In this document: one piece after another, positions 17,875 through 22,911 of the stretch
Layout: the number at the start of each line of letters is the position of its first letter
Position numbering within the stretch: position 1 is the first letter of the stretch
DNA from: Hanstruepera flava
GTDB lineage: Bacteria; Bacteroidota; Bacteroidia; Flavobacteriales; Flavobacteriaceae
NCBI RefSeq assembly: GCF_023634025.1
Contig: NZ_JALJCW010000001.1
Coordinates: 417,501-481,500 of the forward strand
Length of the DNA stretch: 64,000 bases
Reading direction: 5' to 3'
Notes under the pieces: model-generated
What the model saw: only the letters and a program-made list of their open reading frames with translations
What the model was told of the DNA's origin: nothing
The model's database searches: none
Translations under genes and position numbers: made by a program

Positions 17875-17960
17875 GCGCACGTGGCGGAATTGGTAGACGC
17901 GTTAGGTTGAGGGCCTAATGACCGCTTTTGGTCGTGGAAGTTCGAGTCTTCTCGTGCGCA
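17875..17960 (+). tRNA. tRNA-Leu (anticodon GAG)
   Basis: 86-base class II tRNA: acceptor GCGCACG with CGTGCGC, D arm with GGTAGACGC, anticodon stem TTAGG/CCTAA around TTGAGGG giving anticodon GAG, a long variable arm (GACCGC...GGTC), the T-loop TTCGAGT and discriminator A. CCA is not encoded. Confidence 0.96.
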
Positions 17961-17982
17961 CTTCATAATTTTCTGCTAAATC

Positions 17983-18015
17983 TTTGTTTGATTACAATAA
18001 ATTAATTTATTTTTG
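17983..18015 (+). promoter_or_regulatory. Promoter of the CarH-like regulator gene
   Basis: TTTG at 17983-17986 and again at 17987-17990, with gaps of 21 and 17 bases to the -7 box TATTTTTG at 18008-18015, fit the consensus. The -7 box runs into TTTGTTTAAT, similar to the crtI operator candidate, so autoregulation by the regulator is plausible (inference). Confidence 0.65.
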
Positions 18016-18036
18016 TTTAATAATTTATTGAAATAA

Positions 18037-18933
18037 ATGAACAATATTAAAACAAATTTCAGTATCAAGGATTTAGAGCACCTCTCGGGAGTTAAAGCTC
18101 ATACCATTAGAATTTGGGAAAAACGCTACAACTTATTACAACCTAATAGAACAGATACCAATATTAGGTATTACAGTCTTGAAAGTTTGCAAAAACTATT
18201 GAATGTAACCTTTTTGTACAACAATGGCTTTAAAATATCTAAAATAGCCAAGATTAATGATGTAGATATAGCCAATACAGTAAAAGAACTTTCTGCCAAA
18301 GAGCAAGAAAGTGACCATGCCATTAGTATGTTTAAACTGGCTATGTTAAATTTTGACAAGGTATTATTTTTTAAAACCTTTGATGGTTTAGCTAAATATA
18401 AATCTTTTTCAGATATTTTTATTGAAGTTTTTGTACCATTAATGAGTGAAATTGGTCTTTTATGGCAAACCAATACCATTACACCTGCTCAAGAACATTT
18501 TATTTCAGAATTAATAAAACAAAAGCTGCTTGTAAATATTGAAACACATCAAACAAAGAATCCTATTGTAAACGACAGGACATTTGTTTTGTACCTACCA
18601 CTAAATGAAATTCATGATTTAGGCTTATTATTCGTTAATTACCAATTAGTTAAAGCAGGATACCACACCATTTATTTAGGACCAAGTGTTCCAATAATAA
18701 GCTTGAAAGATGTTTTAAAGCAATATAGCAACATTACTTTCATTTCTTACTTTACGGTTAAACCCGATGGTGATGCTATTTTAGATTACTTAAATGAGTT
18801 TAAAACTGAACTGCTTTCAAATGACAATAAACTTTTAATTTTTGGTCGATTAATAGACAATATAAACCCTAACAACTTAGATAAGTCTATAAAAGCATAC
18901 CATTCAGTCGAGAATTTCATAAAAGAAATATAA
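18037..18933 (+). CDS. MerR-family regulator with B12-binding domain (CarH/LitR-like photoreceptor)
   Basis: 298 residues. N-terminal MerR helix-turn-helix (SIKDLEHLSGVKAHTIRIWE, about 8-75), a helical bundle (about 95-170), then a Rossmann-like cobalamin-binding domain (about 180-298). The key light-sensor residues are visible: W143 with E153-H154 (the Wx9EH motif that caps the adenosyl group in CarH) and E191-I-H193-D-L-G196 (the ExHxxG motif with the lower-ligand His). Known CarH proteins bind DNA as adenosylcobalamin tetramers in the dark, repress carotenoid genes and release DNA in light. The position directly before crtI supports that job. B12 binding here is predicted, not shown. Monocistronic or leading the crt operon, 45 bases before crtI. 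Confidence 0.88.
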   Translation: MNNIKTNFSIKDLEHLSGVKAHTIRIWEKRYNLLQPNRTDTNIRYYSLESLQKLLNVTFLYNNGFKISKIAKINDVDIANTVKELSAKEQESDHAISMFKLAMLNFDKVLFFKTFDGLAKYKSFSDIFIEVFVPLMSEIGLLWQTNTITPAQEHFISELIKQKLLVNIETHQTKNPIVNDRTFVLYLPLNEIHDLGLLFVNYQLVKAGYHTIYLGPSVPIISLKDVLKQYSNITFISYFTVKPDGDAILDYLNEFKTELLSNDNKLLIFGRLIDNINPNNLDKSIKAYHSVENFIKEI

Positions 18934-18962
18934 AATTATGTTTTTTTTGTTTAGCATTTTTA

Positions 18963-18980
18963 TATATTTGTTAAACAAAT
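18963..18980 (+). promoter_or_regulatory. crtI -7 box with overlapping 15-bp palindrome (candidate operator)
   Basis: TATATTTG at 18963-18970 is a perfect TAnnTTTG. The palindrome ATTTGTT-A-AACAAAT spans 18966-18980, overlapping the -7 box and the first two bases of the crtI ATG. A TTTG lies at 18946-18949 but only 13 bases upstream, short for a -33 element. If the start point is six to eight bases after the box, the crtI mRNA would be leaderless or nearly so. A regulator bound here would block both polymerase and the 5' end. Confidence 0.5.
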
Positions 18981-20445
18981 GAAACAGCAAATTATAATAA
19001 TCGGTTCAGGGTTCTCATCTCTTTCAGCTTCATGCTATCTAGCTAAAGCGGGATATGATGTAACTATTTTTGAGAAAAACAATACCATTGGTGGTCGTGC
19101 GAGACAATTAAAAAAAGACGGTTTTAGTTTTGATATTGGTCCAACTTGGTATTGGATGCCAGATGTTTTTGAACGCTTTTTTAAAGACTTTAACAAAAAG
19201 CCTTCAGAATATTATACTCTTGAAAAGTTAAATCCTGCATATTCTGTTTATTTTGATAAAAACGATTTTATAACCATTGAAAATACACTCGATAAAATTT
19301 ACGATGCTTTTGAAAAAGAGGAATCGGGAAGCTCAAAATTACTCAAAAAATTTATTGATAAAGCAAAAGACAACTATAACATTGCAATAAAGGATCTCGT
19401 TTATAATCCTGGTGTATCTCCATTAGAACTTGTAACACTTAAAACAATTATAAAGCTAGATCAGTTTTTTAGTACTATAAAAAAAGATGTTAGAAGAGCG
19501 TTCAAAAATGAAAGGCTTGCTAAAATTTTAGAGTTCCCCGTTTTATTCCTTGGCGCCAAACCTAGTGACACGCCATCATTCTATAGCTTTATGAACTATG
19601 CCGATTTTGGTTTAGGTACATTCCATCCTAAAAAAGGTATGTACCAAGTAATTTTAGCTTTGGAAACTTTATCCAAAAGTTTGGGGGTGAAAATTAAAAC
19701 CAATGCTCCTGTTGAAGATATTGAAATACTTGGCAAAAAAGTAATCGGTATTACCTCAAATGGTGAAAATTATAGCTGCGATATCCTGTTAAGCGGTGCA
19801 GATTATCACCATACAGAAACTTTGTTAAAACCCGAATTCAGGCAATATTCAGAAAAATATTGGGAGAATAAAACATTTGCACCTTCATCTCTATTGTTCT
19901 ATGTTGGTTTTAACAAAAAATTAAAAAACGTTAATCATCACACTCTATTTTTTGATGTTGATTTTGATAAACATGCACACTCCATTTATGATAATCCTGA
20001 ATGGCCAGATGAACCTTTGTTTTATGCCAGTTTCCCTTCCATTACAGATTCCAATGCTGCACCCGAAGGTAAAGAAGCTGGAATTTTTTTAATTCCGCTA
20101 GCACCTGGGCTTAAAGACACCAAAAAATTACGAAGTGAGTTTTTTACCAAAATTATGGATAGGTTTGAAACCCTAACCTCTCAAAACGTCAGAAGTTCAA
20201 TACTATTTGCAGAGTCTTTTTGTATTAACGATTTTATTAAAGATTATAATTCTTACAAAGGCAACGCCTATGGTATGGCAAATACCCTCATGCAAACCGC
20301 TTTTTTAAGACCTAAACTTAAAAGTAATAAAGTTAAAAATTTGTATTTTACTGGGCAATTAACAGTTCCAGGGCCTGGAGTTCCTCCATCGTTAATTTCA
20401 GGAAAACTTGTTGCAGAACTCATTAATAAACACCACGCAAATTAA
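18979..20445 (+). CDS. crtI: Phytoene desaturase (CrtI type)
   Basis: 488 residues. FAD-dependent desaturase turning phytoene into lycopene at the membrane. The N-terminal dinucleotide fold IIIGSGFSSLSASCYLAKAG is followed by the family motif EKNNTIGGRARQLKKDGFSF and GPTWYWMPD. The C-terminal FAD segment is YFTGQLTVPGPGVPPSLISG, the classic bacterial CrtI signature. First gene of crtI-crtB-crtZ-crtY, with two bases separating it from crtB. Confidence 0.95.
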   Translation: MKQQIIIIGSGFSSLSASCYLAKAGYDVTIFEKNNTIGGRARQLKKDGFSFDIGPTWYWMPDVFERFFKDFNKKPSEYYTLEKLNPAYSVYFDKNDFITIENTLDKIYDAFEKEESGSSKLLKKFIDKAKDNYNIAIKDLVYNPGVSPLELVTLKTIIKLDQFFSTIKKDVRRAFKNERLAKILEFPVLFLGAKPSDTPSFYSFMNYADFGLGTFHPKKGMYQVILALETLSKSLGVKIKTNAPVEDIEILGKKVIGITSNGENYSCDILLSGADYHHTETLLKPEFRQYSEKYWENKTFAPSSLLFYVGFNKKLKNVNHHTLFFDVDFDKHAHSIYDNPEWPDEPLFYASFPSITDSNAAPEGKEAGIFLIPLAPGLKDTKKLRSEFFTKIMDRFETLTSQNVRSSILFAESFCINDFIKDYNSYKGNAYGMANTLMQTAFLRPKLKSNKVKNLYFTGQLTVPGPGVPPSLISGKLVAELINKHHAN

Positions 20446-20447
20446 TC

Positions 20448-21287
20448 ATGAAATCAATCTTTGACAATGTATCGCACTCATGCAGCAAAATGGTTACTAA
20501 AACATATAGCACCTCGTTTTCGCTAGCTACTAAAATGCTTGCCCCTTCCATTCGCCAAGACATTTACAATATTTATGGCTTTGTTAGGTTTGCCGATGAA
20601 ATTGTAGATAGTTTTCACAATTATAACCAAGCCCAGCTATTTGAGGAATTTGAAAAAGATTTAAATCTGGCTTTAGAACGTAAAATAAGCTTAAACCCTA
20701 TTCTTAATGCATTTCAAGAAACTTATCATAAGTACAATATAAACATTGAATTAGTTAATGCTTTCATGAAAAGTATGCGAACCGATTTATTTAAAACAAC
20801 CTATCTAACTGAAGAGGAATACAAAGAATATATTTATGGTTCAGCAGATGTAGTAGGTTTAATGTGCTTAAAAGTATTTGTTAATGGTAACGAAGAACAA
20901 TATAAAAACCTAAAATCTACTGCAATGCATTTAGGTTCAGCGTTTCAAAAAGTGAATTTTTTACGCGATTTAAAAAGTGATTACGAAGTTCTTAATAGAT
21001 CTTATTTTCCAAACACAGATTTGTCAAAACTAGACGAGGAGTCTAAACTATCTATTATAAACGACATTGAAAATGATTTTGAGTTAGGATTAGCTGGCAT
21101 TAAACAGTTGCCTATAGAAGCCAAATTTGGTGTTTTTGTGGCTTATCGCTATTATAAGCAATTATTGAAAAAGTTAAAAAAAACTCCAGCACTTCAAATT
21201 AAAAACGCTAGAATTCGTGTACCGAATTATAAAAAAATTGAACTTCTTACTCGTAGTTATGTAAAATATCAACTAAATTTACTGTAG
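20448..21287 (+). CDS. crtB: Phytoene synthase
   Basis: 279 residues of the all-helical squalene/phytoene synthase fold. Condenses two geranylgeranyl diphosphates to phytoene. The two Asp-rich diphosphate-Mg sites are visible as RFADEIVDS (about residues 42-50) and NFLRDLKSDY (about 169-178). Substrate-binding KTYSTSFSLATKML is at the N-terminus. Short spacing to crtI and crtZ indicates one mRNA. Confidence 0.95.
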   Translation: MKSIFDNVSHSCSKMVTKTYSTSFSLATKMLAPSIRQDIYNIYGFVRFADEIVDSFHNYNQAQLFEEFEKDLNLALERKISLNPILNAFQETYHKYNINIELVNAFMKSMRTDLFKTTYLTEEEYKEYIYGSADVVGLMCLKVFVNGNEEQYKNLKSTAMHLGSAFQKVNFLRDLKSDYEVLNRSYFPNTDLSKLDEESKLSIINDIENDFELGLAGIKQLPIEAKFGVFVAYRYYKQLLKKLKKTPALQIKNARIRVPNYKKIELLTRSYVKYQLNLL

Positions 21288-21288
21288 T

Positions 21289-21738
21289 ATGACGGTTTTA
21301 CTTTGGATATTAATTTTTTTAGGCACATTCTTTTTCATGGAGTTTATGGCATGGTTTACCCATAAGTATATTATGCATGGTTTCCTTTGGTATTTACATA
21401 AGGACCACCATCGTAAGGATCATGACAGTTGGTTTGAAAGGAATGATGCATTCTTCATTTTTTACGCTGTAGTTAGCATCACACTGTTTTTACTTTGGAA
21501 ATACAACGACTTTTGGGCTGGATTACCAATAGGTCTTGGAATATTTGCCTATGGTTGCACGTACTTTTTAGTCCATGATATTTTTATTCATCAGCGTTTT
21601 AAACTATTCAGAAATGCTAATAATTGGTATGCCAGAGGTGTAAGGCGTGCTCATAAAATTCATCATAAGCATTTAGGAAAACATGATGGCGAGTGCTTTG
21701 GAATGTTATTCGTACCTTTTAAGTACTTTAAAAAATAG
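21289..21738 (+). CDS. crtZ: Beta-carotene hydroxylase (CrtZ)
   Basis: 149-residue membrane di-iron hydroxylase of the fatty acid hydroxylase superfamily. The His motifs are HKYIMH, HKDHH, HDIFIHQRF and HKIHHKH, between hydrophobic helices. Adds 3- and 3'-hydroxyls to beta-carotene, giving beta-cryptoxanthin and zeaxanthin. It starts one base after the crtB stop. Confidence 0.95.
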   Translation: MTVLLWILIFLGTFFFMEFMAWFTHKYIMHGFLWYLHKDHHRKDHDSWFERNDAFFIFYAVVSITLFLLWKYNDFWAGLPIGLGIFAYGCTYFLVHDIFIHQRFKLFRNANNWYARGVRRAHKIHHKHLGKHDGECFGMLFVPFKYFKK

Positions 21739-21759
21739 TTTTAAACCTTCAAAAGCTAT

Positions 21760-22911
21760 ATGCCGAAGCTATTACATTTCGATTATATAATTATTGGAAG
21801 TGGATTGGCAGGTTTACAATTAGCACTAAACTTAAGTCGTGACGATTTCTTTAAAAATAAACAAATTGCCTTAATAGATTCAAAAAATAAAACCGAAAAT
21901 GATAAAACATGGAGTTTTTGGGAAAAAGGCTCTAGTGAATGGGATAAAATAACACATAAAACCTGGAATACTGCCCTTTTCTATTCGCACAAAGTTAATT
22001 TAAAACTTGACTTAGAAGATTATACCTACAAAACCATCCGTTCAATAGATTTTTACACTTTTGCAATCAATGAACTGAAAAAACAGGATAACATACACTT
22101 TGTTTTAGACACCATAAATGGCCTAGAAGAACAGGAGCAGGTAAAAGTATTGGGTAAAAAACAAAACTATGTAGGCCAACACGTATTTGACAGTAGGATT
22201 CCTAAAGATTTTTTTTCTAACAAAAAGCATGTTCTAGTCCATCAACATTTTAAAGGCATTGTAGTAAGAAGTAAGGCACCTTGCTTTAATCCGGACAACT
22301 TTACCATAATGGACTATCGTTTTCAATACAAAAACACAACCAGCTTTATTTATGTACTACCATTTTCTGAAACCGAAGCTTTAATTGAATACACTTTTTT
22401 TACTCCACAACTAGTTAACGAACACGTTTATGATGAGGCTATATCCAGTTATCTAAAAAACAAGTTAAATATAGACCAATACACAATTACAGAAACCGAG
22501 CGTGGCAATATACCTATGACAGATTTTGAATTTTGGAATTATAATTCAAAACACATCACAAAAATTGGTACAGGTGGCGGATGGGTTAAAGGATCTACTG
22601 GATATGCTTTTAAGCACACACAAAAAAACGTTAGTACCATAATTAGCAATCTAAAAGCCCATAAATTGCCTTCACAAAAAATAATAAAGAAAAAATATAA
22701 ATTCTACGACAAAATTTTTCTTAACGTATTACATGAAAATAATGATAAGGGTGTTTGGATTTTTGAACAGTTTTATAAAAAGAATTCAATAAACACGATG
22801 TTTCAATTTTTAGATGAAGACACCTCGTTCTTTCAGGACTTAAAAATTATGAATTCCCTATTCTCCATTACTTTTATAAAAGCTTTTTTTAGGGTTTTAT
22901 TCAGATATTAG
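21760..22911 (+). CDS. crtY: Lycopene beta-cyclase (CrtY family)
   Basis: 383 residues with an N-terminal FAD/NAD-binding fold (DYIIIGSGLAGLQLALNLS) and the cyclase signature DKTWSFWEKG, then MDYRF, PFSETEALIEYTFF and GNIPMTDF. Converts lycopene to beta-carotene. Last gene of the operon; together the set predicts zeaxanthin as end product, the usual yellow pigment of marine flavobacteria. No ketolase (crtW) is seen in the window. Its 3' end overlaps the convergent thioredoxin gene by 15 bases and no terminator is visible. Confidence 0.93.
   Translation: MPKLLHFDYIIIGSGLAGLQLALNLSRDDFFKNKQIALIDSKNKTENDKTWSFWEKGSSEWDKITHKTWNTALFYSHKVNLKLDLEDYTYKTIRSIDFYTFAINELKKQDNIHFVLDTINGLEEQEQVKVLGKKQNYVGQHVFDSRIPKDFFSNKKHVLVHQHFKGIVVRSKAPCFNPDNFTIMDYRFQYKNTTSFIYVLPFSETEALIEYTFFTPQLVNEHVYDEAISSYLKNKLNIDQYTITETERGNIPMTDFEFWNYNSKHITKIGTGGGWVKGSTGYAFKHTQKNVSTIISNLKAHKLPSQKIIKKKYKFYDKIFLNVLHENNDKGVWIFEQFYKKNSINTMFQFLDEDTSFFQDLKIMNSLFSITFIKAFFRVLFRY

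Follow-up and report, generated by a model that had tools for sequence, protein, structure and literature searches.

A putative B12-gated light regulon with a dyad-symmetric operator in Flavobacteriaceae

In the 64,000-nucleotide (nt) stretch of the Hanstruepera flava genome analyzed here (contig NZ_JALJCW010000001.1; hereafter the window, to whose positions our coordinates refer), a gene for a MerR-B12 regulator directly precedes crtI-crtB-crtZ-crtY. CarH-like genes at crt clusters are already known; the question raised by this one is whether it encodes a light sensor and how far its control reaches. An earlier account made from the DNA letters alone (the sequence-only reading) took the locus for a self-contained, light-responsive zeaxanthin unit whose regulator keeps both CarH light-sensor motifs. 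The gene order and motifs were borne out: open reading frames (ORFs), residues, and Pfam and NCBIfam matches agree, and the coordinates of the five ORFs were exact on recheck. Our best reading of the comparative data is that a CarH-like photoprotection regulon is probably widespread in the Flavobacteriaceae, and we assign a probability of roughly 0.7 to the regulator being an adenosylcobalamin (AdoCbl)-dependent dark repressor of this regulon, released from its operators by light.

The regulator was found in 242 of 299 Flavobacteriaceae genomes (protein search, E ≤ 1e-8), the closest named relative being that of Hanstruepera marina (91% identity); a search of its own genome at E ≤ 0.01 returned only the self-match. 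The remaining 57 genomes were treated as lacking the regulator, 37 of them by elimination. We divided 88 distinct aligned regulators (the window plus fetched loci, two short fragments excluded) by score into a main clade of 66, which includes the window, and a divergent group of 22. For comparison we used long stretches from 40 loci of the main clade and 20 of the divergent group, some of these loci chosen by hand. In 60 of 66 main-clade rows, the window not counted, crtI lies directly 3' of the regulator on the same strand.

The gap before crtI contains a conserved inverted repeat with the consensus TGTTTAAY-N14-RTTAAACA. We scored it over 16 positions, with spacers from 4 to 24, in gaps of at least 38 nt (n = 47, comprising 46 of the 60 crtI-adjacent main-clade rows and the window). 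At spacer 14, scores of at least 15/16 occurred in 40/47 gaps, compared with at most 1/47 at any other spacer and at most 1 such site in shuffled sets. Outside the gaps, 2 of 4,061 sequence segments matched in 40 of these loci, and the sole listed site of at least 15/16 outside the regulator and crt regions (L115:10723) itself precedes a gene of the island described below. The crtI -7 box lies inside the 14-base spacer and the second half-site nearly adjoins the ATG. The dyad symmetry of this 30-bp operator suggests that the DNA-bound assembly would have two-fold symmetry. A direct-repeat reading, with the crtI halves 21 bp apart, was dropped; TetR-like and some fasciclin promoters keep the inverted form only.

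Genome-wide, the H. flava sequence has perfect degenerate matches at crtI, at both promoters of a photorepair island, and at a fasciclin gene; eight simulated genomes of 3.09 Mb contained no perfect site. A two-part search allowing at most one mismatch returned three places: one at crtI and two others separated by 6.5 kb. The single-site pattern TANNTTTGTTWAAC was not enriched in this genome (8 matches versus 11 for the control), and the two-part pattern with up to three mismatches gave 56 matches versus 45 for its control. Since the latter hardly exceed the control, only near-perfect two-part sites carry weight.

The repeat tracks the regulator. A close crtI is present in 24 of the 57 regulator-lacking genomes, 13 of which pass a completeness and contamination filter, and none of the 24 has the repeat within 300 nt 5' of the gene (138 and 211 nt in two cases), the best score being 13. 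The difference from the 40/47 found with the regulator has a Fisher value of 5e-13, which ignores phylogeny. In six of these 24 genomes (L243, L248, L249, L251, L254, and L260), tRNA-Leu(gag), which in the window precedes the regulator, stands directly before crtI, which suggests that regulator and operator were lost together at the same locus.

A second site appears to lie at the regulator's own start. Among 62 of 67 distinct main-clade regulators with an assignable start, TGTTTA exactly 23 nt before the ATG was found together with ATGAACA in 46 and without it in none; six had ATGAACA alone, and ten had neither. At codon 2, AAC outnumbers AAT 52 to 2, whereas at codon 3 AAT outnumbers AAC 34 to 13 (Fisher value, 1e-13, ignoring phylogeny). 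Because TGTTTA at -23 occurs only with ATGAACA and the two codons differ in bias, the start codon seems to be part of the predicted operator. ATGAACA also agrees with TnnACA, the core of CarH sites described before (excerpts of PMC9304148). Of two binding regions proposed earlier, 18946-18980 coincides with the crtI operator (18948-18977); the other, 17983-18015, falls mostly 5' of the conserved site at 18014-18043.

The predicted targets extend well beyond the crt genes. The first island site precedes genes for a TetR_C_23 protein, an ABC1 kinase, an NmrA/DUF2867 protein, a cryptochrome DASH, and a photolyase-related protein. The second precedes genes for a hypothetical protein, DUF2805, FolE, a small ORF, an SDR, and a last ORF that we take to resemble glutathione peroxidase. 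A further site, nearly identical in look to that at crtI, lies before a fasciclin lipoprotein gene (C2:179992). Contrary to the earlier claim, the unit is thus not self-contained if these predictions hold: the regulon would add the cryptochrome/photolyase-related/FolE island and fasciclin elsewhere in the genome. Among the best 30 of 45 TetR-like matches, 24 belong to main-clade genomes, and their promoters scored 16 eighteen times, 15 five times, and 14 once; 23/24 thus reached at least 15/16 at spacer 14, compared with at most 5/24 at any other spacer (spacer 24). For fasciclin promoters, the corresponding values were 22/30 and at most 3/30. The sole regulator-lacking genome among those best 30 of 45 (G059) has a TetR-like promoter that scores like shuffles. 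Gene content follows the regulator as well, with 25 of the 57 regulator-lacking genomes, some incomplete, used for the TetR-like count and 12 for fasciclin. The TetR-like gene is present in 41/55 genomes with the regulator versus 4/25 without it (41/54 versus 4/18 at ≥90% completeness), and the fasciclin gene (E ≤ 1e-30) is present in 30/43 versus 0/12. One genome (G212) has a regulator copy directly before the island genes, and each of its two island promoters bears a perfect repeat; no photolyase genes lie between these promoters in the stretch read.

Two side observations concern these targets. The island TetR-like gene contains an in-frame stop in four genomes (L202 [G107], G007, G241, and G247). 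Inverted repeats of the same form precede secreted-protein genes at L171:6591 and L173:4683 (C2:15590 and C3:182682 in H. flava), and the two H. flava sites are possible additional regulon members.

That a TetR-like gene sits first in the island operon raises the possibility that another protein, such as this one, binds the repeat, and TetR-like proteins do bind palindromes. We consider this barely plausible. A TetR-like protein is an unlikely binder because the perfect crtI repeat is kept in 6/8 main-clade genomes that have no TetR-like gene, and four genomes that have one and lack the regulator (G059, G180, G228, and G249) show no crtI repeat. A variant of the operator also follows a divergent regulator subtype, with exceptions at some TetR-like and regulator promoters.

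This variant, TGTCYAAY-N14/15-RTTRGACA, was found upstream of the divergent-subtype regulators, which have a divergently adjacent fasciclin gene in 17/20 loci. Scores of at least 15/16 occurred with N14 in 11/20, with N15 in 8/20, and with either in 15/20, and the remaining spacers between 6 and 22 gave no such score; in the listed positions there are often two copies 52 bp apart. Of five TetR-like promoters in genomes with this subtype, that of G261 is a perfect variant operator, that of G040 carries variant halves 15 apart by reading of the sequence, and that of G014 has no such site. In the recognition region, the two groups differ most at I26 (Lys in 18/22 divergent regulators) and K29 (Ser or Thr in 17/22), and these residues may read the changed operator base. 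A member of the window's own genus (L081/G230) has the divergent subtype only, beside fasciclin-crtI-crtB-crtZ; within a genus, one subtype therefore seems able to stand in for the other. The motif, its spacing, its targets, its absence where the regulator is absent, and its variant form in the divergent subtype are in silico results.

The position of the operator bears on how the regulator works. At crtI and fasciclin, the site covers the -7 box and the start site, and at the TetR-like gene it is located 5' of the -7 box. The regulator has a MerR DNA-binding domain, and classical MerR proteins use dyad-symmetric operators, so that it might instead activate transcription by remodeling a long promoter spacer. 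This is highly improbable in our view: an activator that twists a spacer needs one fixed position, and the operator is found variously over the -7 box and start, at the regulator's own start codon, and 5' of the -7 box. A repressor fits because the operators lie over -7/+1 (crtI, fasciclin, and its own gene) or just 5' of the -7 box (island).

Is the regulator a B12 photosensor? Pfam matched the regulator to MerR_1 (PF13411; 6.5e-15) and B12-binding_2 (2.3e-10), and the light-site motifs are W143-x9-E153-H154 and E191-x-H193-x-x-G196. In an alignment to Thermus CarH (TtCarH) spanning regulator residues 8 to 228, W143, E153, H154, and H193 correspond to TtCarH W131, E141, H142, and H177 (TtCarH numbering from PMC11796333). 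W143, E153, E191, and H193 are invariant in all 88 regulators; G196 is kept in 85, and H154, and with it the whole Wx9EH motif, is intact in 84. In the four others, all of the main clade, His154 is replaced by Asn or Arg (L044, L045, L046, and L137). Of the light-responsive signature of PMC11796333 (GxxW, EH, GxxH, and GxxxP), the window's regulator has G140xxW143, E153H154, and G215xxxP219, but GxxH has Asn190 for Gly, as in 51/66 main-clade regulators. The AlphaFold2 model (mean pLDDT, 87.6; 50-sequence alignment) best matched CarH structures 5c8e, 5c8d, and 5c8f in a Foldseek search of the PDB, followed by CtMerR (8jbt/8jbs), with a best E of 1.3e-13 and 18% identity to Thermus CarH in the fold alignment; the CarH entries cover dark, DNA-bound, and light structures. 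In the model, strands and helices alternate from roughly residue 178 through the C terminus, aligned with the CarH structures, which points to a Rossmann B12 domain of the kind that class II LitR proteins lack. The genome encodes one Cob_adeno_trans adenosyltransferase, one cobalamin riboswitch, and three B12-binding proteins; judging from these genes, AdoCbl could be made from imported B12 in this bacterium.

Several observations weigh against a CarH-like light repressor, in the protein and in the operator alike. The Rossmann half had no PF02310 match in Pfam at E ≤ 0.001, and the regulator scored 74.7 bits against the cutoff of 400 for the NCBIfam CarH equivalog NF052513. Gln144 replaces TtCarH His132, the upper ligand of the bis-His light state; this position is Gln in 65/66 and His in 1/66 main-clade regulators and Gly, Thr, or Ser in 22/22 divergent ones. 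The classic B12 motif, D/ExHx2G...SxT/V...GG (PMC9304148, available in part), is kept only in part, with S237-Y-F and G270-R271, so that SxT/V and GG are lost; at position 271, Gly occurs in 3/22 of the divergent group and is not among the main clade's five commonest residues. On the operator side, 7 of 47 crtI gaps, 8/30 fasciclin promoters, and 5/20 divergent-subtype regulator promoters fall short of 15/16, the TetR-like promoters of G230 and G253 fit both dialects equally (14/16), and those of G014 and G040 score like shuffles at spacer 14. The upper His is not universal, being Arg in CtMerR and Gln in SasPcob (PMC11796333), and most TtCarH H132A stays tetrameric after light, although an earlier report cited there found disassembly (PMC10442372, excerpts).

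The unmatched PF02310, the loss of SxT/V and GG, and the missing His132 equivalent would suit a regulator that runs the regulon without being a B12 photosensor, B12 independent like class II LitR or CarA and receiving light or singlet oxygen signals through a partner. In the available text of PMC9758184, the class II LitR proteins of Pseudomonas putida take part in the light induction of genes for PhrB, FolE, and CryB and are regarded as not binding B12, and Myxococcus xanthus CarA keeps the B12 motif yet works without B12 (excerpts of PMC9304148). We nonetheless regard this alternative as unlikely: the Trp of Wx9EH that is lost in CarA, according to the same excerpts, is kept in 88/88 regulators, the whole motif is kept in 84/88 and the axial His in 88/88, and the genome has an adenosyltransferase. 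It is less likely still that the regulator senses cobalamin level, or oxygen or redox state, rather than light and ties photoprotection genes to B12 supply. A B12-binding repressor would itself respond to B12, and oxygen takes part in the TtCarH light reaction (PMC10442372, in part), but the predicted targets are light related (cryptochrome, photolyase-related protein, and carotenoids), and the W and E of the photolysis site are invariant.

We infer that the CarH-like regulator binds AdoCbl, is released by light, and represses rather than activates. In the dark, the AdoCbl-bound regulator would oligomerize and bind the TGTTTAAY-N14-RTTAAACA repeats at the -7 box and start of crtI and fasciclin, at what is presumed to be the -33 region of the promoters of the island, and at its own start site and start codon, thereby blocking transcription. 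Light would break the Co-C bond and the regulator would leave the DNA, so that the carotenoid, cryptochrome/photolyase-related, fasciclin, and regulator genes and those for FolE and its companions would be expressed together; without B12, the regulon genes would be on. Light induction is predicted from the repressor-like operator positions combined with the Thermus model, in which a dark AdoCbl oligomer sits on DNA and light releases it (PMC4557120 and PMC10442372, both in excerpt). Of the sequence-only reading, the predicted CarH-like light control of crt has good support from the predicted fold, the residues, and an operator that tracks the regulator; the self-contained zeaxanthin unit is not supported. 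The sensor also differs from Thermus CarH in its inverted-repeat operator and in having no counterpart of His132.

More broadly, it seems probable that a B12-gated light regulon is common to Flavobacteriaceae, run by a CarH-like clade that differs in its workings from known CarH and has a dyad-symmetric 30-bp operator, one copy of which embeds the regulator's own start codon. This clade would sense light without the bis-His state, couple carotenoids to cryptochrome, photolyase-related, FolE, and fasciclin genes, and comprise two subtypes with matching operator dialects. Apparent novelties are the design of the operator, the regulon beyond crt, and the dialects of the two subtypes, for all of which the comparative sequence evidence is strong. 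A single motif thereby points to candidate light-controlled genes throughout a large family of bacteria, with the prediction that flavobacterial photoprotection depends on vitamin B12. The family would also provide a natural set of CarH-like sensors that lack the bis-His ligand, as well as a CarH-type operator that differs from the direct repeats reported so far, and the two dialects (TGTTTAAY and TGTCYAAY) are of possible use for green-light gene control.

Features of the regulator-crt unit in the H. flava window
Feature	Position	Strand	Basis or remark
tRNA-Leu(gag)	17875..17961	+	landmark just 5' of regulator unit
Regulator promoter -7 box TATTTTTG	18008..18015	+	read from sequence
Predicted autoregulatory operator TGTTTAAT-N14-aATGAACA	18014..18043	+	half-site 2 overlaps start codon; partial inverted-repeat match
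MerR-B12 (CarH-like) regulator, 298 aa	18037..18933	+	ORF, Pfam, alignment, predicted fold
Predicted crtI operator, inverted repeat TGTTTAGC-N14-GTTAAACA	18948..18977	+	conservation across loci
crtI promoter -7 box TATATTTG	18963..18970	+	within operator
crtI phytoene desaturase	18979..20445	+	NCBIfam CrtID, above cutoff
crtB phytoene synthase	20448..21287	+	Pfam SQS_PSY
crtZ-like beta-carotene hydroxylase, 149 aa	21289..21738	+	conserved position; name from His motifs
crtY lycopene cyclase	21760..22911	+	Pfam Lycopene_cycl

We take both -7 boxes to belong to the Bacteroidota TAnnTTTG promoter type. The CrtZ-like protein had no Pfam or NCBIfam match at 0.001, and its name is our assumption from His motifs and gene position. 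Zeaxanthin is a plausible product of the crt unit. CrtI passes the cutoff for CrtID, a bifunctional phytoene desaturase/3,4-desaturase (723 bits against NF058655; cutoff, 640), so that a different carotenoid is possible. No geranylgeranyl diphosphate synthase gene is among the unit's five genes, and no search was made elsewhere. Many ORFs neighboring the regulator loci of relatives are unannotated; in many of these relatives (L099-L138), one of about 230 aa after crtZ replaces crtY and is possibly another type of lycopene cyclase.

Among the matches listed in our literature search, which mostly did not cover subscription papers, there was no recognizable description of this inverted-repeat operator or such a regulon in Bacteroidota. 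Bacterium GF1 has a zeaxanthin cluster of similar arrangement, with its lycopene cyclase gene elsewhere; its MerR-B12 gene 5' of the zeaxanthin genes was noted in 2020, with control upon photo-oxidative stress suggested (PMC6974559, in part). A MerR-family gene likewise stands first in the myxol cluster of Nonlabens spongiae, described in 2025 (excerpts of PMC11855829). The excerpts of these two papers contain no analysis of an operator, a regulon, or sensor residues. MliR of Bizionia was considered and set aside as a different MerR-like protein, with DNA-binding and coiled-coil domains (PMC9478572, in part). Chryseobacterium lacus has light-induced zeaxanthin (PMC7064467) and gives no direct support, since its authors reported neither car nor lit operon genes to be present. 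Light-induced genes of Mycobacterium kansasii include a photolyase and two fasciclin-domain proteins, a possible parallel to the flavobacterial regulon; neither B12 nor LitR regulators are mentioned in the available part of the paper on that genome (PMC9861118).

In domain plan the regulator resembles CarH of Thermus thermophilus and Bacillus megaterium (class I LitR), with a MerR domain, a Wx9EH helix bundle, a Rossmann domain with an axial His, and crt control, the last predicted here. Their operators are tandem 11-bp direct repeats, nnnnTnnACAn (PMC9304148, excerpts), whereas that of the window is inverted with a 14-bp spacer and would therefore be a new CarH operator design; its half-site TTAAACA still contains TnnACA. 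CarA and CarH of Myxococcus and Cystobacter share crt control (again predicted here), plastic operators, and the half-site core; CarA differs in lacking the Trp, and the authors suggest that it, too, recognizes direct rather than inverted repeats (same paper, in whose text the word "photolyase" was not found). CtMerR of Chloracidobacterium and SasPcob of Saccharothrix, the latter listed as a photocobilin and not as a MerR regulator, resemble the window's protein in having B12 domains of the light-responsive set without His132 (PMC11796333). The class II LitR/PplR proteins of Pseudomonas have the four-helix part only and are thought not to bind B12, yet their light regulon of PhrB, FolE, and CryB is similar to the island of the window's genome (PMC9758184, available in part).

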